Positions 1 to 9,751 of a stretch of DNA of 64,000 nucleotides are shown piece by piece. The notes beneath the pieces are model-generated. The model saw nothing but the letters and a program-made list of their open reading frames with translations. It was not told where the DNA came from and did not search any database. Source of the DNA: Leptospirillum ferrooxidans C2-3 (GTDB taxonomy: Bacteria > Nitrospirota > Leptospirillia > Leptospirillales > Leptospirillaceae); the NCBI RefSeq assembly GCF_000284315.1, contig NC_017094.1:1085486-1149485 (forward strand), written 5' to 3'. Each line of letters opens with the position of its first letter. Position 1 is the stretch's first letter. The position numbers were made by a program, and so were the translations under genes.

Positions 1-863
1 GTTGAGGAGATGGAACGCTCCAAACACTCTTTTTGTGCGAGGGCGAGATCCTTCTCCATCAGAGCGACAGAAAAGGCTTTGGGATAGTCCCTTTTGGTGA
101 GGTTCTCCTTTTTTAACTGATAGAAGGCGCAGGATAAAGGGCTTTTGAAGACAAGGTCGAGAATCCTCTCCCTTGAGAACCCCAGATCTTCCCCAAGAGA
201 AACCGTCTGGGCCAAGGATTCCATCTGTGCGGCAAGAAGGGTATTGATGATCAGTTTTCCCGTCATTCCGGCGCCGACGTCTCCAAGATGAAGCGTTTCC
301 TTTCCAAGAATGGAGAGGATGGGGGCAAGTTCTGCAAGTTCTTTCTCCGGCCCCCCCGCCAGAAGAAGCAACTGTCCGTTCTGGGCGGGAACAACCGATC
401 CGGAAACAGGGATGTCCAGATAAATGCCTCCTGCGTCTTCGACTATTTGTGCTTCTTTTTCGGCTTCCTTCGGGGAGATGGTTGACATGTTGACGACGAT
501 CGTCCCGGGAGACAGTCGGGAGAGAATTCCGGTTTCGCCTGAAAGGACGGAATGTGTTGCATGGCCATCTGTCAGCATCATGAACAGGATTCGGGCATCC
601 CTTGATACATCACCGGGGGTTTTTGCGACTTTCAGTCTTTTGTTGACGGGAACTTTGGTGCTGTCCCTGTTGTATCCGGTCAGGTTCATGCCCGCATCAA
701 GGAGTCTTCCGGACATTGCCCACCCCATGCTTCCAAATCCGATCCACCCCAAAAGCGGAGTATCCGGTTGTTTTTGTCTTTCTTGAAGGTGAGGGATGGG
801 ATACTCCGCAGAAATCCCGGGAATTTCGTTTTTGGGGGCCATGATCGGCAACTCCGGGTTCAT
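1..863 (-). CDS. Beta-hydroxyacid dehydrogenase, HIBADH/GLYR1 family (partial, C-terminus off the left edge)
   Basis: NAD(P)-dependent dehydrogenase of the 3-hydroxyisobutyrate/glyoxylate-reductase family. The frame begins at an ATG (863-861) with GGAGG eight bases upstream and stays open to the window edge, so about 287 residues are visible. After an unusual polar leader of about 37 residues comes the dinucleotide loop GWIGFGSMG. The family substrate motif follows as DIPVSGSVVPAQNGQ, then the catalytic-lysine motif GAGMTGKLIIN. The gene is transcribed away from the secretion operon. Family assignment is firm from the three ordered motifs. Substrate (succinic semialdehyde, glyoxylate, hydroxyisobutyrate) cannot be told from sequence alone. 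Confidence 0.9.
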   Translation of the reverse strand, partial: MNPELPIMAPKNEIPGISAEYPIPHLQERQKQPDTPLLGWIGFGSMGWAMSGRLLDAGMNLTGYNRDSTKVPVNKRLKVAKTPGDVSRDARILFMMLTDGHATHSVLSGETGILSRLSPGTIVVNMSTISPKEAEKEAQIVEDAGGIYLDIPVSGSVVPAQNGQLLLLAGGPEKELAELAPILSILGKETLHLGDVGAGMTGKLIINTLLAAQMESLAQTVSLGEDLGFSRERILDLVFKSPLSCAFYQLKKENLTKRDYPKAFSVALMEKDLALAQKECLERSISS

Positions 864-980
864 CTTGAACCTCCTGACGGATTAAGGTTTTCTAAAAATG
901 GATCGATTTATTCTAGCCCAAGAGGACTTCCTGTTCCATCCTTCGGGCCTGTCGTGGCTCCCGTTTGTGAAGGATAATGA

Positions 981-999
981 TTCTTGTTATCAACAAGAA
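981..999. promoter_or_regulatory. Perfect inverted repeat, candidate enhancer site
   Basis: TTCTTGTT, three bases (ATC), then AACAAGAA: a perfect 8-bp dyad. It lies about 165-180 bp upstream of the -24/-12 promoter, the usual distance for a sigma-54 activator site. It is also about 120 bp upstream of the dehydrogenase start and could instead serve that gene. The dyad is seen directly; its function is inferred. Confidence 0.4.
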
Positions 1000-1158
1000 A
1001 AACAGTCATTTCCATAACATGATGTCCAATATTGGTAAAAATAAGTTTTGGAACGTGGCTCCTCTTTTTTGGCCCGTTTCTTCATTGAAGATCTTTTATG
1101 TTTTTGTCTAAGAGTATTTGAAATCATCATAAAGTTTTTTGTGAACGGTATCTTTTAT

Positions 1159-1175
1159 TTGGCATGCTCCTTGCT
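1159..1175 (+). promoter_or_regulatory. Sigma-54 (-24/-12) promoter of the secretion operon
   Basis: The sequence TTGGCATG-CTCC-TTGCT matches the RpoN consensus YTGGCACG-N4-TTGCW with one substitution. The invariant GG (1161-1162) and GC (1173-1174) have the required 10-bp separation. It lies 32 bases before the virB2-like ATG, with AAGAAGGAGG between them. The rest of 864-1206 shows no gene. Confidence 0.75.
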
Positions 1176-1206
1176 TTTGTTTGGAAAACAAAAGAAGGAG
1201 GTTCGA

Positions 1207-1476
1207 ATGGTTCCCCACGCTTTATTGGTCAATCTGTTTGTCGGAAACTATGGTGAAAATTCCCAGATCACCGCATTTGCGAACAGCGTCGCCAATTTTG
1301 TTGTCTATGGTCTTGGCAGTTTTTTATTTGTTCTTGGAATGGCGAAAGCGGGTTTCGCCATGAAAAGTCATGACGCGGACGGCATCCGGCAGGGAGTGAT
1401 GACCATTGCCGGCGGTTCCTTGATGCTGATGTCCAAGTCCATATGGGAAACGTTGACCAATTGGTCGGGTTTTTAG
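1207..1476 (+). CDS. VirB2/TrbC-like pilin
   Basis: Small (89-residue) hydrophobic protein at the head of the secretion operon. Two membrane segments lie at about residues 24-48 and 62-80. They are separated by a short polar loop (KSHDADGIRQ) in the TrbC/VirB2 manner, where the second helix begins with a glycine-rich stretch (IAGGSLMLM). The open frame extends 53 codons upstream, but the ATG at 1207 is chosen because AAGGAGG sits 6 bases ahead and the sigma-54 promoter lies inside the upstream extension. VirB2 proteins polymerise into the pilus of type IV secretion systems. Assignment rests on topology plus gene order. No long cleavable signal peptide is evident, which is atypical. Confidence 0.65.
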   Translation: MVPHALLVNLFVGNYGENSQITAFANSVANFVVYGLGSFLFVLGMAKAGFAMKSHDADGIRQGVMTIAGGSLMLMSKSIWETLTNWSGF

Positions 1477-1835
1477 TGGATCCTGTCCGTATTTCCCGCA
1501 GTCTACTGTCTTCACCTTCTCTGGGGAGATTGCTGTTGCCGCAAGATCTGCTGGTTTTTATCGGACCACTTTTTCTGGGATTCGTTCTTCATCTGGATTT
1601 TTTTCTCGTCCTGATTTTCTTTATTCTCTCTTTTGGACTGATCCTTCATCTTCGGGGTTATGGAGAGGGTACCCTCCGGGGAATGACCTTTTTTTTCTTT
1701 TCGGAAAAAGCGCATTTGCCCGCTCTCCCGGACCCTTTTCGATCCGTGATTCTGGAAAGCTCGCAGGCGATCCTGAGAAGAGAAGAGGGTGTGTCTGAAA
1801 GAGAAGAGCCACTCCCGGAGATTCCATCGAAATGA
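1476..1835 (+). CDS. VirB3-like inner-membrane protein
   Basis: About 119 residues from a GTG at 1476 that shares one base with the preceding stop (TAGTG). An ATG at 1443 in the same frame would overlap virB2 more deeply. The protein has a hydrophobic double segment at about residues 23-56 and a charged C-terminal tail rich in Glu and Arg. Size, hairpin topology and the position between the pilin and the VirB4 ATPase all match VirB3, which associates with VirB4 at the inner membrane. Sequence similarity by eye is weak, so the call is mainly contextual. Confidence 0.55.
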   Translation: MDPVRISRSLLSSPSLGRLLLPQDLLVFIGPLFLGFVLHLDFFLVLIFFILSFGLILHLRGYGEGTLRGMTFFFFSEKAHLPALPDPFRSVILESSQAILRREEGVSEREEPLPEIPSK

Positions 1836-4339
1836 GGAATTCTCACAGACAGCTCAAGGGAACAGGTCATCCTGTTTCGTCCTCCTTTGATCTTTTGACA
1901 ATCGATCAGGATATCCTTTTGGGCGTTTCCGGACGGGGATCCCTGACATGGGCTTTATCCGGTGCGGATATTTTCATGAAATCGGACCCCGAGGTTTTTC
2001 AGGTTTACCGGGGAATTGAAAACTTGGCGCACCACCTTCCCTCGGGAATGGGACTTCAGCTTCGCATTCGCCAACAATCCGGAATCCCTCAAGAAAATCC
2101 TGAACTCATGCCGCCATGGGGATCGACCCTTTTGAAAGGAAGGGAGGATCAATCGTCTTCTGAAAATAGAATGTTCATCGAGGAGAGGATCAGGGACGCC
2201 TCCATTCGATTCCTCAGAAAAAGGGAGCTTTTTTTATCACTTGTCATTTATGGAGAAGAGACCAAAAAGCTTCTTGCTCCTTCATGGCACCCGATCCGGC
2301 AGATCTCTTCCATGTTTGGGGGCGATCTCATAGGCAAGTACGGGAAGACTGCCTCATCTCTCAGGAAGGCAGGAGCTCTTGTGGAAGCCATGCTCCCGGG
2401 GTGTGGTCTTTTGGGAAGGCGGATGATGGGGGATGAACTGGCCCGCTATCTTTTTACCCTGGCCAATCCCCTCTATAAGGGGGGGCTTCCCGATCAACTG
2501 CTTTCTGATTCCCGTCATTCCACTCTCCGCGAAAGGATCAGCCAGACGACCTTTTGGGAAAAAGAGGACGGAATCATTGCCGTTGATCCATCCGGTCTCA
2601 GGATGTCGGGGAAAATGCACGCATTGAGGCTTCTCCCGTTTGAAGTGGATCGGGAAACCCTTTCTCCTCTTCTTTTCGATCTGGACTTTTCCCATGACCT
2701 GGTCATGAATATCTGGAAACCCGCCCATGAGAAACTGGCGAAGAAGGTTCAGTCCGATGCGACGATCAATCGGTTCCTGACCTATATCCTGCCCGGACGA
2801 TCGTATCGGATTGAATCGGACATTTCGTCTGCGGAGGAGTTTCTCACCAGATCCTTCGACGGACCTGCCGAATCGAGGGTACCGCTTGTGATCAACATGT
2901 GCATCGGGGTCTGGTCCCGGGACGAAGCGGAGGCGGTTTCCAGAGGAGAGCAGATCACCCAGTGCTTTGCCGCCATGAATGGGGCGATGGCTGGAGTTGA
3001 TCCCTATCGGCAGTGGCCCCTTTTCCTTTCAGGCTTGCCGCTGGAAGGGGATGCCAATGATCGGTGGGAGGGTCTCCTTTCCCGGGAGTTTTCGAGATTG
3101 TTTCCTGTATGGGATGGGTCCGTGTGCGATCCCGATCCATGGTTCTGGGGAAAAAATCATCTTTCGGAGTGCGCCGGGCTCAACTTCTGGCGGCCCCAGG
3201 ACCCAAACCACAATGGACTGGTCGTCGGCCGGTCCGGCGGGGGGAAATCCTTTGCCATCAAGATGCTGGTCGGGCAGTTTTTGGTCCACTCCGGGGAACA
3301 TCAGGTCATTGTCGTGGAAAATGGTGGGGATTTTGAAAGGCATTGCGAGTATTTCGAGGGAGATTATGTCCGGATCGATCTGAGCGGACAATACTCCCTG
3401 AATCCGTTTCCAACCCGTCACTTCATTATGATGTCCGTTGGGCCCCCAAGGGAATATGATCCCGACCTTTTGGGTTTTTTATGCGGTGTTGTGGAGACAT
3501 TCCTGGCCTCTTCGATGGAGGTGACAAGCCTCCATCGAAGAATCCTGACGCTTTGCCTTGAGGAGGTCTATGACCAACTCCCCGGAGATGATGTCCGTCC
3601 GGTCCTTTCGCATCTTGTCCGGGAGCTTTTCCGGTTCAGGGGAAGGGACAGGGAGGATGAGGAGACCGGTTATCGCATGGGGAAAATCCTGGAGTCGTGG
3701 GTCGGCGGAATGTATGGTCCATTGCTGAACAGCGGAGAAGGCATATCCACCTCCGGGCGCCTCTTGGCCTTCGACCTTTCAGGTCTTGAGCATCATGAGC
3801 CACTCAAGGCTGTTGTGTTTGCCTATATTGCCGGCCTGTCCCTCTGGAGGCTTCTTTCCGGTTCCGGAGAAAAGCGGCTTTTTCTGGTCTTTGATGAAGC
3901 CCATCGCATTCTGGCCCATCTCCGGGGAACCTCGTTCCTCTCCCATCTGTACCGGACCGTCCGCAAATATGGTGGCGGGGTGATTGCCATCAGTCAGTCT
4001 CCGGAGGATTTTCTGGGAGAGGATCTTTCCGCCGGCATTTTAAACAACACTTCCTGGAAATGGATCTTTCCGGTCTCGAGCAAGGAAGAGGATCTTCTGG
4101 CGTTTGGATTGACGGCCAGGGAGATTGAACTTCTTTCCACACTGGATTCCCGTCCCGGTGATTTTTCGGAGGTTCTTTTTTCGAGGCAGGGACAGTCGAT
4201 GATTCTCCGGCTTGAGCCGAGTCTTCTGGAGTACTGGCTTTCCGCGAAATCTCCGGAAGAGGATCGGGTTGTCAAAGAGCGTGTTCTGGAAACCGGTGGA
4301 CTCAAGGAAGCCTTGAAAAGTCTTTTGGAGGAGAGATGA
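1832..4339 (+). CDS. VirB4/TraC-family type IV secretion ATPase
   Basis: An 835-residue AAA-type ATPase that powers substrate or pilin movement at the inner membrane in type IV secretion systems. The ATG overlaps the previous stop as ATGA. Walker A reads VGRSGGGKSFAIK at about residues 465-477. Walker B reads LFLVFDEAHRIL at about 683-694. They are followed by the conserved YRTVRKYGGG and AISQSPEDF stretches typical of VirB4/TraC. The roughly 450-residue N-terminal part is the usual VirB3-interacting region, and the length is normal for the family. This is the most securely recognised component and anchors the operon as a type IV secretion locus. Confidence 0.93.
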   Translation: MRNSHRQLKGTGHPVSSSFDLLTIDQDILLGVSGRGSLTWALSGADIFMKSDPEVFQVYRGIENLAHHLPSGMGLQLRIRQQSGIPQENPELMPPWGSTLLKGREDQSSSENRMFIEERIRDASIRFLRKRELFLSLVIYGEETKKLLAPSWHPIRQISSMFGGDLIGKYGKTASSLRKAGALVEAMLPGCGLLGRRMMGDELARYLFTLANPLYKGGLPDQLLSDSRHSTLRERISQTTFWEKEDGIIAVDPSGLRMSGKMHALRLLPFEVDRETLSPLLFDLDFSHDLVMNIWKPAHEKLAKKVQSDATINRFLTYILPGRSYRIESDISSAEEFLTRSFDGPAESRVPLVINMCIGVWSRDEAEAVSRGEQITQCFAAMNGAMAGVDPYRQWPLFLSGLPLEGDANDRWEGLLSREFSRLFPVWDGSVCDPDPWFWGKNHLSECAGLNFWRPQDPNHNGLVVGRSGGGKSFAIKMLVGQFLVHSGEHQVIVVENGGDFERHCEYFEGDYVRIDLSGQYSLNPFPTRHFIMMSVGPPREYDPDLLGFLCGVVETFLASSMEVTSLHRRILTLCLEEVYDQLPGDDVRPVLSHLVRELFRFRGRDREDEETGYRMGKILESWVGGMYGPLLNSGEGISTSGRLLAFDLSGLEHHEPLKAVVFAYIAGLSLWRLLSGSGEKRLFLVFDEAHRILAHLRGTSFLSHLYRTVRKYGGGVIAISQSPEDFLGEDLSAGILNNTSWKWIFPVSSKEEDLLAFGLTAREIELLSTLDSRPGDFSEVLFSRQGQSMILRLEPSLLEYWLSAKSPEEDRVVKERVLETGGLKEALKSLLEER

Positions 4340-4923
4340 AATCAGGAACCATCAAAAGGCGATGTTTGCTGATTTTCCTCCTTTTCCTGTCTTTTCCTCA
4401 TCCGGCCTATGCCGTCATGGGCTCAAACACGTTGATCGAAAGCAGGATCCTTTGGGTTGAAAGCCAGACGAGATCAACTCTTTCCCGTCTCAGGAACTTT
4501 ATTTTTGAGAAAAATCAGGGGCAGGATTTTCTGAATGCACCGGCTCTTCCACCTTCCATTCCTGTGACGGCCGCTCCGGCCAGTCCACCATCTGTTTCTC
4601 AAATCAGTCGCTCTGCAAGTGAAGGGATGGGAGCGGCACTCGGAGGGATCGCCTCCGCTCCAGGCCAGGAAGCCATCGGACAGGGGATCCATCAGATGGC
4701 CTATTCCTCGAGTCCGGAAGGGGCTCTCCGACTGGGTGCCGATACACAGGGACACATTTTCCAGATGCTCCTGTCGATTCATCAGGATCTTCTCTATCTC
4801 CTGAAAGAGCAGTCTTCCACGACGGGGCTCGAGGGAGCGATTCTCGACCATTCCCATAATGCAAACCTTGAGGACCAGCAGACGATCCGTCAGGATCTTC
4901 CCCGCTGGATCATGATGCGCTGA
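4336..4923 (+). CDS. Secreted protein in the VirB5/TrbJ position
   Basis: A 195-residue protein whose ATG overlaps the virB4 stop by four bases. It has a clear signal peptide (hydrophobic core LLIFLLFLSFP, cleavage near AYA/V at about residue 26). The mature part contains a Pro/Ala/Ser-rich linker (about 67-95), then predicted helices ending in DLPRWIMMR. VirB5 and TrbJ proteins are periplasmic, helical minor pilus components encoded exactly here, between VirB4 and VirB6. No VirB5 motif can be recognised by eye, so the function is positional inference. Confidence 0.5.
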   Translation: MKSGTIKRRCLLIFLLFLSFPHPAYAVMGSNTLIESRILWVESQTRSTLSRLRNFIFEKNQGQDFLNAPALPPSIPVTAAPASPPSVSQISRSASEGMGAALGGIASAPGQEAIGQGIHQMAYSSSPEGALRLGADTQGHIFQMLLSIHQDLLYLLKEQSSTTGLEGAILDHSHNANLEDQQTIRQDLPRWIMMR

Positions 4924-6161
4924 TGGGACAGGGTGGATGCCAGGGGACTCCCGGACAGGAAGGAATCTTGTTATTCCAGGATTCGACGACCATTCCCTGC
5001 GTCCTTTCCCCTGTTCATGACCAGGTGCTTCTTGTGGCGCGGGTCCTTTTGATGATGACGATTCCCATTGCCACACTGATGTTGTGGGGAAAGCTCCGGG
5101 ACGGGAAACCCATTTTCGGGAATCTCGTCCAGATCGTGCTGGTTTTTATGGTCATGATCGGATATGCCATGTTTTTCACCGATGGCGTCTCTCTTGTGGG
5201 AGCCATTGCCGATCGACTTTACCCCAGTAATCTGATTCTGGATTTTTATGAAACGATCTGGTCCCAAAACCTGATTCCCGGGAAAGTGGGCTCTTTTGTC
5301 AGCATTCTCTCCGATCCGATGGGGATCATCTATATCCTTCTCCTGGATCTTCTGAAGGTTCTGGTGTTTTTGTTCACTCTTGTCCGATATGCGCTTCTGT
5401 CTTTCCTGTATGTGATTGGCCCGCTTCTATGTGCTGTTGCGGTAATACCGGGAATGTTCTTTTTGCTCGCCCAATGGGCGAGAAACACCCTTGAAGTCGC
5501 GATGTGGCTTCTTCTCCACAATATTTTCATTGCGATATTTGCCTCGATCAGTCTCTATCAGGCCCTGAATCCCGCAGGTCCCATGACCGCATTCGGAAAC
5601 CGCGTGCTGTCGATCGGCGTGATCCTGGTTCTGGTGATGATGTTTCTCTTTGTGCCCATCCTGACCCATCTTCTGATGGACAAGTCTTACGAGGGGATCG
5701 GTTCGTTTGTCGGTCCCCAGGCTTCCATGGCCGGTAAAAGGATGCTGGAAGAAAGTGTTCTCCGTCCATTGGTCAAGGGCGAACTTCCTTTCGGGGTGGG
5801 TGAAATGAAGATTGGAAAGGTTGAAAAAGATATCGGTCAGGGGCGAAGAGTCTATAAAAAAAGTCAATTGAGGCTTGGTCCCTATACCTTTACCTCTCTT
5901 TTGTGGAACCGGAAACCAAAGGATGAGAGCGCTTCCGGGGAGGCCACAAAAGCCCCGAAAACCCGAAAGAGCGCCAAAAAAACCACACTGGCAGACGGAG
6001 ATGCCGGGGCTGCCCAGGTGAAAACCCGGTCTTCCCGGACAGCCGCAAAACCCAGAGCGGCCAGAAAGGTTGCCGTTTCTTCCACTCCTGATGAGATTTT
6101 GCCGGAAAAGCCCAAAGCCAGAAAGAAAAAAGTGGTTTCTCCGCCAGAGCCCGCTTCATGA
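4923..6161 (+). CDS. VirB6/TrbL-family polytopic membrane protein with long basic tail
   Basis: A 412-residue protein sharing one base with the previous stop (TGATG). Several hydrophobic segments lie between about residues 35 and 255, including the runs around LARVLLMMTIPIAT, VLVFMVMIGYAMFF, LLSFLYVIGPLLCAVAV and VILVLVMMFLFVPI. The central large loop and topology fit VirB6/TrbL, which forms the inner-membrane channel. The last 80 or so residues are very different, made almost entirely of Lys, Arg, Ala, Pro, Ser and Thr (for example KTRKSAKK and KPKARKKK) and resembling a histone-H1-like tail. This tail is not standard for the family. Confidence 0.75.
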   Translation: MGQGGCQGTPGQEGILLFQDSTTIPCVLSPVHDQVLLVARVLLMMTIPIATLMLWGKLRDGKPIFGNLVQIVLVFMVMIGYAMFFTDGVSLVGAIADRLYPSNLILDFYETIWSQNLIPGKVGSFVSILSDPMGIIYILLLDLLKVLVFLFTLVRYALLSFLYVIGPLLCAVAVIPGMFFLLAQWARNTLEVAMWLLLHNIFIAIFASISLYQALNPAGPMTAFGNRVLSIGVILVLVMMFLFVPILTHLLMDKSYEGIGSFVGPQASMAGKRMLEESVLRPLVKGELPFGVGEMKIGKVEKDIGQGRRVYKKSQLRLGPYTFTSLLWNRKPKDESASGEATKAPKTRKSAKKTTLADGDAGAAQVKTRSSRTAAKPRAARKVAVSSTPDEILPEKPKARKKKVVSPPEPAS

Positions 6162-6835
6162 AGAATCTCTTGTTTGGCCGGGATCATTCCGGAGAGATGG
6201 CTCCGCCTCCCGGAATGGACCGGATCCTGGAACTTGAGCGACGCATTCAAATGGGGAGCCGCCTTTTCTGGGCGCTGGTTTTTGCAGACATTCTGGGGAT
6301 GCTCCTGATTTTCTGGTATGTCCCGAGCCGAACACTCGTCGTGGGCCTTTCAAAAGAAGGAGAGATGGTGAGACTTCCTGAAATCCAAATGCCTCCTGAC
6401 GAACGATCTGAAGCGGTCCTTGCCGCTTTTTCAAGGGGATTTTTGAATAATCTCGCCGCGTATGATGCGTTTGAGGAGCCATACCGGCTCAAAAAGGCTT
6501 TTTCGAAGATGACGCCGGAGCTCAGGAAATCCCTTGGCTCAGAGCTCTCGAAGAATCATTTTATGGAAAGTATTACGGGATCGAGACTCCGGTCCACTCT
6601 CGATGTTCGCGGGATCCGGTCCAAAAAAGTGGCTCCGGGGGTTTTTTCGGTGCGGGCTTTTTGCGTGAGACATGTCCGATCCTATGACGACCAGCAATTT
6701 TTGAGGGATGACCTCCTGAAGACCAGAATGGTGATCAGGGCAGGGGGGCCCACTCCGGAAAATCCTTATGGACTGTGGGTCTCATCCTATGCGGAAGAGT
6801 CCCTCGACAAACCTTCAACCTCCGGTCGACCATGA
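6158..6835 (+). CDS. VirB8/TraE-like inner-membrane scaffold protein
   Basis: A 225-residue bitopic protein overlapping virB6 by four bases. A short cytoplasmic N-terminus is followed by one membrane helix (about residues 38-55, LFWALVFADILGMLLIFWYV). The periplasmic domain of about 165 residues holds a helical part and a strand-rich end (VFSVRAFCVRHVRSY, LLKTRMVIRAGG, YGLWVSSYAEE). This is the VirB8/TraE layout, a dimerising scaffold that links VirB6, VirB9 and VirB10. The call combines topology, size and operon position. A single periplasmic Cys is present. Confidence 0.7.
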   Translation: MKNLLFGRDHSGEMAPPPGMDRILELERRIQMGSRLFWALVFADILGMLLIFWYVPSRTLVVGLSKEGEMVRLPEIQMPPDERSEAVLAAFSRGFLNNLAAYDAFEEPYRLKKAFSKMTPELRKSLGSELSKNHFMESITGSRLRSTLDVRGIRSKKVAPGVFSVRAFCVRHVRSYDDQQFLRDDLLKTRMVIRAGGPTPENPYGLWVSSYAEESLDKPSTSGRP

Positions 6836-7905
6836 ACAGGATGTTTCTCTCCGGCTTTCTGGTGTCATTGATTGTCATCACCATTCCCCTGGTCTGGCTG
6901 ATCGATGCACGATCGTCTTCGAGAGTTCTTCCCACTCCTCCGGTCGCTGTTCCCGAGGCCAGAACGACCTTTTCCCTCCCGGTTGAGCCACCTGCTCCGG
7001 TCCATGCGACGCCGGTTACAGAAGCCGATCCTTCCGACAACATTGTCATGGTCAAGAAGCTTCCGGAAAAGGTGATTCCTCCCGAGGAAAGCTCCGGGGA
7101 GGTTCGGGACAGGGCTCCCATCCGGACCCTCGTGTATGATGCGAGCCGTCTTTACACCCTCCGCACAGCCCTTTCCCATGTCACGATCGTCGATCTTCCG
7201 GAGGATGCCCGCGAGGTTTATGTCGGGGATTCCAAACTCTTTCTGGCGGAGGTCTTGGGTTCCAGAATCAAGGTGAAGCCCATTACATACGATCTGAAAA
7301 GCCGAACGAACATGATTGTCTACACAGAACATGATCGCCTGTCCTTCAGGCTTCTGGTCGTTCCTCCCGGAGAGGAGGACGACCTTCTGAGCTTTCGCCT
7401 TCCGAAAAGTGAAACAGTCGTCAACCTGAATCCGATCAAGACCGTTCTTCGGAAAAAGTTAAAGGAAGAGGAGAGTCAGGACCTTTCGATGAAAAGACGG
7501 GATTTTTTAAAGGAAGGAGATCCTCAGCATCCTCTTAGGGCGACCTTCCACGCGGACAAGCTTTTGGTCCGTCTTCTGGGATTTTCCTCACTGGATCAAA
7601 ATCAGTATGCCGTCATCGACTGCAGAAACGACTCTGGACATGACGTGACACTCAGACGGATCCGGCTTCGACGATTTCAGAAGTCCCTTTTGTGGGAGAC
7701 GAGCCGCCATTATGAGGATGGGATGGACTGGTCGAGAGATCTGGACAAGACCGTTCCGGCAGGACAACACGTACGTCTTCTTCTTGAGGTTGGCAAGATC
7801 ACTCCGCTTTCCCAACGGGAAGGACTCTTTTTGTCGGGAAGGGTCCGGACGTCCGGCGGCGGAGAAATAGCGATAAAGGCGGTTTCTGCGGGAGAAAGGC
7901 TTTGA
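6832..7905 (+). CDS. VirB9/TrbG-family outer-membrane-complex protein
   Basis: A 357-residue exported protein. The ATG at 6832 overlaps the virB8 stop and is preferred over an in-frame ATG 57 bases upstream. An N-terminal hydrophobic segment (about 5-22) is followed by a Pro-rich region. Next comes a domain with the VirB9-type strand pattern LYTLRTALSHVTIVDLPEDA ... SRTNMIVYTEHDRLSFRLLV at about residues 103-183. A C-terminal beta-domain follows (about 230-355). VirB9 lines the outer-membrane core complex together with VirB7 and VirB10. Confidence 0.75.
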   Translation: MNRMFLSGFLVSLIVITIPLVWLIDARSSSRVLPTPPVAVPEARTTFSLPVEPPAPVHATPVTEADPSDNIVMVKKLPEKVIPPEESSGEVRDRAPIRTLVYDASRLYTLRTALSHVTIVDLPEDAREVYVGDSKLFLAEVLGSRIKVKPITYDLKSRTNMIVYTEHDRLSFRLLVVPPGEEDDLLSFRLPKSETVVNLNPIKTVLRKKLKEEESQDLSMKRRDFLKEGDPQHPLRATFHADKLLVRLLGFSSLDQNQYAVIDCRNDSGHDVTLRRIRLRRFQKSLLWETSRHYEDGMDWSRDLDKTVPAGQHVRLLLEVGKITPLSQREGLFLSGRVRTSGGGEIAIKAVSAGERL

Positions 7906-8858
7906 ACAGGATTGTTTTGCTGGTTGTAACGGCAGTGGCTGGTGTTGTTCTGTCCCTTTTTTATGGCCAGTCGGGAAAACATGATCACCGGGAGCAGCGG
8001 GCGGATCATTCATGGACAAGCGGACAGGAGGGGGGAAGAGTTCTGGATTCCCGGACGTCATGGCAAAATCTTCCTTCTGTGATCCATCCGGGATCCTTCG
8101 GAATGGGGCGAGACTCCCAGGGGGGGAAATCCGGCGAGGGTCACGAGCTCAATACCAGAAGTACCATTTATGTTGATGGCACAGGGAGTCCGGTTGGGGA
8201 TCCCCAGGGGGAGGGAAACATGTTTGGTCTCCTGGGTCCGCTCATCAGTGGAGCAGGACAATCCCTGGCGCTTGCCAGAAAAGCTTCCGGGCAAAAAGGA
8301 GTCGCTCCCGGACCGACGGTCCCCGCGGGGACGATTCTCAGGGGGCGGGTCATGAGACGCTTTGACGGTCCTTCGGGGGGAGCTCCCATTTTTGTCCTGA
8401 TTCCACCCCAGACGGCCGGCCCCATCCCAATCGCCCATTCGTTGAAGATTATGGGATATCCGGTGGGGCTTTCTCCTGAAAATCGGCTCATGATGCGATT
8501 TATGCGGGTGATCTACGGCAATGGTCTGGAGGCCCAGATGACGGGGTATGCGATGCAGGGGGGGCGGGAGGGTGTTCCTGTCGATGTCTCCCGCCATCCG
8601 GGCAGCCAGTTTGCCGGATCGGTCGCGCAAAACACCCTCATGATGGGTGGCAATGCGATTGGATATATGGGGTATGGCAACGCCGGAATCGGCTCGGATC
8701 TGGCCATGCAGGAAGCGGGGGCGGTTGTCGGGTCGAGCCAGTCGGTCATGCCGGTGCCAAACCAGCAGACAACCTACACCCTTTCTGCGGGGGCTCCTGT
8801 TTCCATCATGATCATCCATGGATTTCCTCCGTCGGTCTCCCAGTCGGATCCAAAATGA
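7902..8858 (+). CDS. VirB10/TrbI-like core-complex protein
   Basis: A 318-residue protein starting at TTG within a TTGA overlap with virB9. There is one N-terminal membrane helix (about 4-20), then a low-complexity, Gly/Ser/His-rich spacer to about residue 105. The C-terminal beta domain (VPAGTILRGRVMRRFDGPSG..., about residues 141 onward) resembles VirB10/TrbI, in which a PAGT-type strand opens the barrel domain. A Gly/Met-rich stretch (MMGGNAIGYMGYGNAG) may form the outer-membrane antenna. It ends in a Pro-rich segment. VirB10 senses ATPase energy and gates the outer-membrane channel. The protein is somewhat shorter than typical VirB10. Confidence 0.7.
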   Translation: MNRIVLLVVTAVAGVVLSLFYGQSGKHDHREQRADHSWTSGQEGGRVLDSRTSWQNLPSVIHPGSFGMGRDSQGGKSGEGHELNTRSTIYVDGTGSPVGDPQGEGNMFGLLGPLISGAGQSLALARKASGQKGVAPGPTVPAGTILRGRVMRRFDGPSGGAPIFVLIPPQTAGPIPIAHSLKIMGYPVGLSPENRLMMRFMRVIYGNGLEAQMTGYAMQGGREGVPVDVSRHPGSQFAGSVAQNTLMMGGNAIGYMGYGNAGIGSDLAMQEAGAVVGSSQSVMPVPNQQTTYTLSAGAPVSIMIIHGFPPSVSQSDPK

Positions 8859-9751
8859 TCGATGGTCCGGAAAGGCTTTGCCAGGATCGCCTGGACCGGC
8901 TCCTGCATTCACTTTCCCGGATAGAATCCCGGATGAATGAGGGATTCGGAGAGCGGGAAGAGGTGATCAGAAACTGCATTCTGGCCCTTTTGGCGAATGA
9001 GCATGTCTATCTGATCGGTCCCCCTGGAACGGCAAAAAGTCTTATCATCAGAACGTTTTCCGGTTTTTTTGAACATATTTCACTCTATGAGACGCTTTTG
9101 CATGGCGACTCGCATCTATCCGATCTTCTTGTTCCGACTCTTTCGGGGAAAAGTCTTCTTTCCTGCCAGATCGTCTTTCTGGACGAGGTCTTTCGTGCTC
9201 CGAGAGATCTTCTCCTGGGGCTTCTGTCCTTCATGAACGAACGACGGTTCTACCATCCGGATCCCGTTCCTGTCCCGCTTATGAGTCTTTTTGGAGCGAG
9301 TAATCAAAGTCCGTCTCCGGCAGATGGGCTTGAGGCTTTTTATGACCGATTCACCTATCGTTGCATTTTGCGTCCGATGGAATCCCGGGAGCGTTTCTTT
9401 CAGATGATTTTCCAGTCGGGAGATTTTTGGGAAAGGATGACTGATGGATATGAGGATGGAGGGTTTCTTCCGGACTTTTTCTCCCTGATCCCGGGGCTTG
9501 CCAGAATGAGGCTCCCATGGGAAGCGGAGACGCGGGACGGTTTATTTGAACTTCGTCGTTCCCTTGGAAACGAGGGGGTTTTCATCTCCGATCGAAGATG
9601 GAAAAAAGTGGTTCTGGCGGCAACGGTCAATGCCCTGTACGAGGGGGCATCGTCTGTTTTGCCGAACCATCTGTCAGGACTGAAAAATGTGTTATGGAGC
9701 TATCCCACCGAGATTCGTCCGATCGAACGGATTCTGTCCTCCTATCGATAG
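8855..9751 (+). CDS. RavA-type MoxR AAA+ ATPase linked to the secretion operon
   Basis: A 298-residue AAA+ ATPase whose ATG overlaps the virB10 stop (ATGA). It shows the RavA-subgroup signature: Walker A GPPGTAKS (about residues 53-60), Walker B IVFLDEVFRAP (about 106-116), the RavA-like helix LLSFMNERRF, sensor-1 LFGASNQSP, and the Arg-finger segment LEAFYDRF. RavA ATPases normally carry an additional LARA/C-terminal region and act with a VWA-domain partner (ViaA). Here the protein is short and no VWA gene follows. MoxR ATPases act as chaperone-like assembly factors. The position suggests it services this secretion machine, possibly where VirB11 would otherwise be encoded; that is inference. 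Confidence 0.85.
   Translation: MIDGPERLCQDRLDRLLHSLSRIESRMNEGFGEREEVIRNCILALLANEHVYLIGPPGTAKSLIIRTFSGFFEHISLYETLLHGDSHLSDLLVPTLSGKSLLSCQIVFLDEVFRAPRDLLLGLLSFMNERRFYHPDPVPVPLMSLFGASNQSPSPADGLEAFYDRFTYRCILRPMESRERFFQMIFQSGDFWERMTDGYEDGGFLPDFFSLIPGLARMRLPWEAETRDGLFELRRSLGNEGVFISDRRWKKVVLAATVNALYEGASSVLPNHLSGLKNVLWSYPTEIRPIERILSSYR

Follow-up and report, generated by a model that had tools for sequence, protein, structure and literature searches.

The window, i.e., the whole 64,000-nucleotide stretch analysed here, corresponds to C1:1085486-1149485 of the closed 2.56-Mb genome of Leptospirillum ferrooxidans C2-3 (G000). Nine overlapping or close ORFs, located between 1207 and 9751 and downstream of a predicted promoter, form a virB-like operon composed as follows:

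1207..1476, plus strand: VirB2/TrbC-like pilin of 89 aa, the first gene of the operon (PF04956, E 2.2e-7), with a ribosome-binding site, AGGAGG, just upstream
1443..1835, plus strand: 130-aa membrane-protein ORF without a Pfam or NCBIfam match, VirB3-like by position only
1832..4339, plus strand: VirB4-like ATPase of 835 aa (PF19044, E 7.2e-22; NCBIfam TraC/VirB4 below the cut-off)
4336..6835, plus strand: three ORFs of 195, 412 and 225 aa, putatively VirB5-, VirB6- and VirB8-like by position and size only
6775..7905, plus strand: VirB9-like (CagX) protein (PF03524, E 4.4e-7; 30.3 bits, below the Pfam cut-off of 34.2)
7902..8858, plus strand: VirB10-like (TrbI) protein (PF03743, E 9.6e-5; 22.7 bits, below the cut-off of 35)
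8855..9751, plus strand: MoxR/RavA-type AAA ATPase, the last gene of the overlapping run (PF20030, E 9e-25; NCBIfam RavA below the cut-off)

The VirB2-, VirB4-, VirB9- and VirB10-like genes are found in this order, with the VirB9 and VirB10 matches lying below the Pfam cut-offs, and the labels of the four ORFs at the VirB3, VirB5, VirB6 and VirB8 positions, which have no matches, are positional guesses. No VirB11, VirD4 coupling protein or relaxase was found among the nine ORFs, and a coupling protein is encoded elsewhere in the genome, at C1:363 kb. The operon ends in the MoxR/RavA-type ATPase, without a VirB11-like ATPase among its nine ORFs, and a MoxR gene is also present in G006. In the sister Leptospirillum genome, G001, the virB9 position, between the virB8- and virB10-like genes, is occupied by an ORF (L182:14016-15395) that may be an IscB/RRXRR-type transposon protein. 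Apart from the virB-like operon, locus L085 of G000 (C1:362366-365380) carries a plasmid-like conjugation coupling protein of the TrwB/TraD type beside an ArdC anti-restriction gene. VirB4 matches were detected in 14 of the 20 other genomes of the genus and family and in none of 40 additional genomes from the same phylum, and VirB2 matches in 15 of the 21 family genomes, G000 included. The six family genomes without VirB2 are 64-80% complete, and all four genomes that are at least 90% complete have it. The VirB4 of a Leptospirillum relative is 85% identical to that of the window; this relative and G001 have the same upstream sequence and were counted as one genome. The 15 genomes that hold the virB2 start belong to five genera: g1 (Leptospirillum), with G000 and G001; g3, the largest genus, with ten genomes; and g2, g4 and g5, with one each.

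The region upstream of the operon contains the following features:

3..863, minus strand: divergent dehydrogenase of the 6PGDH/HIBADH type (PF03446, E 7.6e-38), starting 109 bp before the putative Fur box
973..991, no strand assigned: putative Fur box, a 19-mer that matches the textbook consensus at 16 of 19 positions on the reverse strand
981..999, no strand assigned: 8-bp dyad TTCTTGTT-ATC-AACAAGAA, with perfect 8-bp arms and a spacer of 3, overlapping the putative Fur box
992..1159, no strand assigned: spacer from the putative Fur box to the -24 element, 168 bp (135-141 bp in 13 genomes of other genera)
1159..1175, plus strand: predicted sigma-54 -24/-12 promoter element, TTGGCATG-N4-TTGCT, assigned from the exact pattern and its conservation in the family

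An earlier note, made from the sequence alone, had placed a sigma-54 promoter before the secretion operon on the basis of a -24/-12 consensus at 1159-1175 with a 10-bp GG-to-GC spacing; the element was confirmed and the assignment supported. The element reads TTGGCATG-CTCC-TTGCT, with GG at 1161-1162, GC at 1173-1174 and ten bases between them, which agrees with the TGGCAY-N5-TTGCW pattern and the GG-N10-GC spacing of sigma-54 promoters, and transcription would start at about 1186. It is the one exact match to TGGCAN6TTGC in the whole 64-kb window; when one mismatch was allowed the window gave 19 matches versus a shuffled mean of 12.9, so that such one-mismatch sites were not taken as evidence. 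Genome-wide, TGGCAN6TTGCW had 22 exact matches versus 4 for the control, in which the pattern was read backwards. Several of the 22 are located inside long ORFs and are probably accidental. Among the rest, one is found upstream of nifH, one upstream of a molybdopterin/P-II protein gene and one upstream of a cytochrome bd oxidase gene, which has an enhancer-binding protein gene as its divergent neighbour. Furthermore, the element stands at the same position before virB2 in each of the 15 family genomes where this gene start is found, exact in 11 of them and with one mismatch in four, and shuffled sequences equalled or surpassed it in 0 of 300 cases in 14 genomes and in 0.7% of cases in G001. 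The mismatch in G001 affects the first T, and in the single genomes of g2, g4 and g5 it strikes the C of the -12 GC (TTGGA, TTGTA and TTGAT, respectively), so that the promoter is possibly weak or altered in these three. A search of both strands of 800-1260 gave no sigma-70-like promoter. From these comparisons the predicted sigma-54 promoter at 1159-1175 can be regarded as real with high confidence.

The absence of rpoN had been named in advance as a reason to give up this assignment; one full-length RpoN is encoded in the genome (TIGR02395, E 2e-120). In addition, the genome has 14 strong matches to enhancer-binding proteins, and three further weak activator matches in ORFs of 822-956 aa. 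A sigma-54 AAA domain and a Fis-type HTH were present in all ten activators examined. For the dedicated activator expected under sigma-54 control there are thus these 14 strong candidates; no gene for one was found in the window, and the closest lies about 85 kb away. A separate observation concerns a 387-aa ORF (L180:9637-10800; C1:575.6 kb of G000) in which a divergent sigma-54 DNA-binding domain (E 1.2e-8) is followed by a GIY-YIG nuclease domain (E 7e-6). The ORF belongs to a gene cluster that also contains HD, GGDEF and chemotaxis-type genes, and an exact -24/-12 site precedes the first gene of this cluster.

When the upstream regions were compared side by side, a shared element was found at one place, overlapping the dyad. 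Its columns, taken from 13 genomes, show GA-rich hexamers in the order GATAAT-GATAAT-N-ATTATC with six invariant columns, and this three-hexamer array we take to be a Fur box. The textbook 19-mer Fur consensus was used as an independent probe on 330 bp of upstream sequence (299 bp in one genome), and its best match was at this place in 15 of 15 genomes, with 11-17 of 19 positions matched (mean 14.7 versus 11.1 in shuffles). The match reached p<=0.01 in 12 of the 15 genomes, and the operon box was poor by this consensus in G019 (p 0.05), G008 (p 0.07) and G005 (p 0.61). A symmetrised matrix was built from 13 operon boxes, leaving out G005 and G015, whose boxes it scored at 14.8 and 18.1, respectively, versus 11.0-19.1 for the training sites. 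The operon box of G000, with the 7-1-7 core of the predicted Fur box at 978-992, has the top matrix score in the window (16.6; runner-up 12.4). In the genome the degenerate 19-mer with up to three mismatches occurred 33 times, both strands counted, versus 4 times for its reversal. Against this, 29 of 57 loci with the box pattern or a similar one fall inside coding sequence, and most of the remaining ones are not beside recognisable iron genes. Fur itself is encoded in the genome (PF01475, E 4.8e-38).

The same motif is found at iron-uptake genes of these genomes: in 17 of 17 genomes having the gene, the matrix detects a box 32-42 bp upstream of where the Ftr1 iron-permease match begins, each with p<=0.01. 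It also detects a box upstream of fur in the two Leptospirillum genomes with that locus, G000 and G001, and none in the other 17 of the 19 fur loci examined; distant paralogues and the truncated L136 do not enter this count. With the box present in just 2 of 19 loci, autoregulation of fur was rejected as a control common to the family. No box was found before the one TonB-plug receptor gene of G000. Of the 22 exact -24/-12 sites in the genome, the 21 besides the virB one have no box with two or fewer mismatches within 350 bp upstream, and five of these 21 carry a box with three mismatches in that range. An enhancer-binding protein with a single target would leave its site missing from those other promoters in the same way, and the position and spacing of the conserved box fit an upstream activating sequence, so that it might be an activator site that merely resembles a Fur box; this we consider improbable, because the same matrix matches the Ftr1 promoter in 17 of 17 genomes and because the motif reads as the three-hexamer GATAAT array. 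The suspected enhancer is better explained as a putative Fur-binding site, and the box at 973-991 is very likely bound by Fur. Further strong box matches in the genome are at L085 (beside the coupling protein and ArdC), where the box is at the start of a possible short ORF and looks accidental, at L089 and at L174. At L174 (C1:1951678 of G000; L202:7680-8543 onward) a Fur-like box (15/19) is followed about 176 bp downstream by a one-mismatch -24/-12 site, TAGCACAACAATTGCT, and the pair precedes a gene for a small outer-membrane-barrel-like protein and a lipoprotein gene; it is possibly a second unit of the same design.

The perfect 8-bp dyad that the earlier note had reported at 981-999 and proposed as an enhancer is present as described. 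However, a perfect arm of 8 or more was found in 7% of 300 dinucleotide shuffles of the same intergenic region, so that the dyad by itself is not above chance. The proposed scan of the genome gave a single exact copy, none with one mismatch and four further places with two mismatches, and on these counts the dyad was rejected as a regulon-wide enhancer. In 13 of 14 relatives its best match did not exceed the shuffle level, and the conserved element that overlaps it is the putative Fur box. Only G001 keeps the dyad, with three mismatches (0 of 100 shuffles as good). In g3, moreover, GTGC-N6-GCAC dyads lie directly upstream of the box in four of ten genomes, and in one more with one mismatch; three other g3 genomes have one-mismatch pairs 21 bp apart, further upstream. 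These g3 dyads are at about -180 and -240 to -280 from the -24 element and could be activator sites or part of the icd promoter; the motif is also found once in G006, at -98, and was not found in g1, g2 or g4. The g3 dyads that abut the box make an activator site beside or under it plausible, and the dyad of the window, kept in G001, might be a genus-specific site of this kind. We judge this unlikely, since part of the G001 match is the Fur box itself, in addition to the shuffle frequency and the absence of the dyad from 13 of 14 relatives. The IHF subunit gene reported in the window was not reproduced by a narrow motif search for HU/IHF, which could miss one. IHF-like sites between the box and the promoter were not above shuffles in any of the 15 genomes (shuffle fraction as good, 0.10-1.00), so the suggested link of IHF to the promoter found no support and IHF bending was rejected as evidence.

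The distance between the box and the promoter is nearly constant. Measured from the box's first base to the initial T of TGGCA, it amounts to 154-160 bp in 13 genomes, which represent four genera, and to 187 bp in the two g1 genomes. The box centre is about 204 bp before the inferred start in G000 and about 171-177 bp before it in the other genera. The spacer itself is not conserved to the same degree, its identity between genera being 0.41-0.55 versus 0.41-0.50 in shuffles, with two of the ten genus pairs about two standard deviations above the shuffles; within g3 the genomes are not independent, two pairs sharing 0.92 and 0.76 of the spacer. In-phase helical spacing is not claimed for -187 versus -158, as the 29 bp correspond to about 2.8 turns. 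A small RNA between the box and the promoter was dropped from consideration, because no terminator-like site was found in 800-1260 and the spacer is unconserved between genera. On the other side of the box, the divergent neighbour was settled for seven genomes: the 6PGDH-type dehydrogenase occupies this place in G000, and icd does so in G012 and G008. On ORF reading alone, G001, G003 and G006 also have the dehydrogenase there and G015 has icd, so that at least three members of the largest genus carry icd. As the box is flanked by divergently oriented genes, with the dehydrogenase start 109 bp away, it might serve the divergent gene, or both genes, and leave the secretion operon under plain sigma-54 control. 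We hold this to be rather improbable: the distance to the divergent gene varies from about 110 to about 380 bp (G015) as the gene changes from dehydrogenase to icd, whereas the distance on the operon side hardly changes, and neither strand of 800-1260 showed a sigma-70-like promoter. Since the opposite neighbour changes without moving the box, the box travels with the operon promoter. No other upstream element common to all five genera was found. Comparison of the sequences establishes the promoter element, the Fur box as a motif and their conserved spacing.

Taken together, these data indicate that the virB-like operon is most likely under joint sigma-54 and Fur control, and Fur probably acts on it. 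The sigma-54 RNA polymerase would sit at -24/-12 (1159-1175) before the virB2-to-virB10-like genes and would need an enhancer-binding protein to open the promoter. The box, at enhancer distance, is too remote for a bound Fur to lie over the core promoter, and hence Fur would either block an adjacent activator or itself help. In G000 the ftr1 box comes after TTGACA and TAAAAT, near or over the expected start of transcription (judged by eye), and because the Fur boxes of ftr1 in the family sit as repressor sites do, we lean towards blocking, from which we infer repression as the direction of control. Iron-loaded Fur on 973-991 would then prevent activator binding or deny the activator access to the promoter, and the operon would be made only when iron is short and the signal of the activator itself is present. 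We give about an even chance to this reading of 864-1206 as a two-input promoter at which iron-loaded Fur keeps the activator off. That Fur blocks an activator is a guess, because no activator site conserved across the five genera was found, and the near-fixed spacing also fits Fur as a helper. The on/off environmental signal anticipated for the operon can be guessed at least in part: from the Fur box, it would be iron.

Two further readings were considered. In one, canonical Fur would act at enhancer distance through a DNA loop of near-fixed length, as a direct second key of the sigma-54 promoter, and the type IV secretion machine would carry an iron gate throughout this family of iron-oxidising acidophiles, which is possible though doubtful. 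In the other, which we find unlikely, a Fur-family protein bound to the box would assist the sigma-54 complex in opening, either in place of a classical enhancer-binding protein or alongside one, by analogy with BosR at rpoS of Borrelia. The enhancer distance and near-fixed spacing across five genera, with the box as the one element common to all, would suit such a co-activator, and BosR, a Fur/PerR homologue, is reported to be required besides Rrp2 at a -24/-12 promoter (PMC3037356). However, BosR is reported to bind without consensus Fur boxes and beside the -24 element, whereas the box here is canonical and about 150 bp away; furthermore, the G000 ftr1 box, which is of the same kind, is in the position of a repressor site. 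Joint control in which Fur blocks the activator is the reading that we prefer.

The habitat of these bacteria is acid very rich in iron, and they live on ferrous iron. If the proposal is correct, the tie of a family-wide secretion machine to an iron regulator would tell when the machine is used, a point on which its sequence is silent. Should Fur influence sigma-54 from a distance, the promoter would be a clear and testable example of an enhancer-dependent promoter gated by a metal sensor, and the natural variants at two spacings offer a comparison. No report of this promoter was found in the open-licence papers searched. Leptospirilla have been predicted to have Fur, PerR and Zur, and thirteen Fur sites were predicted in six acidophiles, according to PMC2631029; the word "secretion" is absent from its main text, and its supplement of predicted Fur sites might include the site described here. 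What is new here is the Fur box and its conserved spacing to the sigma-54 promoter.

Compared with known sigma-54 promoters, this one is alike in the -24/-12 element, in the GG-N10-GC spacing and in the presence of RpoN and activators in the genome, and differs in that the upstream element common to 15 genomes is a putative Fur box and not a recognised activator site. With Fur-repressed operons that carry a GATAAT-array box (ftr1 and fur) it shares the box motif, but in those operons the box lies over the core promoter, and here it lies about 135-170 bp upstream. XibR is kin to NtrC. PMC5130282 describes it as an iron-binding transcription factor. The BosR/Rrp2/RpoN arrangement at rpoS of Borrelia likewise joins a Fur-family protein and sigma-54 at one promoter and indicates that such a protein can be a second activator; BosR activates through a direct repeat beside -24 (PMC3037356), whereas the virB promoter has a distant Fur box. 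A BosR repeat of the TAAATTAAAT type was not seen when the bases just before -24 were read, and the arrangement here, with a canonical Fur box about 150 bp away, is not of the BosR type, which has a repeat adjacent to -24 and no Fur box. Type VI secretion systems are listed under Fur, RpoN or both, with the P. aeruginosa H3-T6SS and Klebsiella systems under both (PMC10482370); in type VI clusters, among them sci1 (PMC3145626), a secretion machine is likewise tied to iron. They differ from the present operon in that the machine encoded here is type IV-like and the box-to-promoter geometry is conserved across genera.
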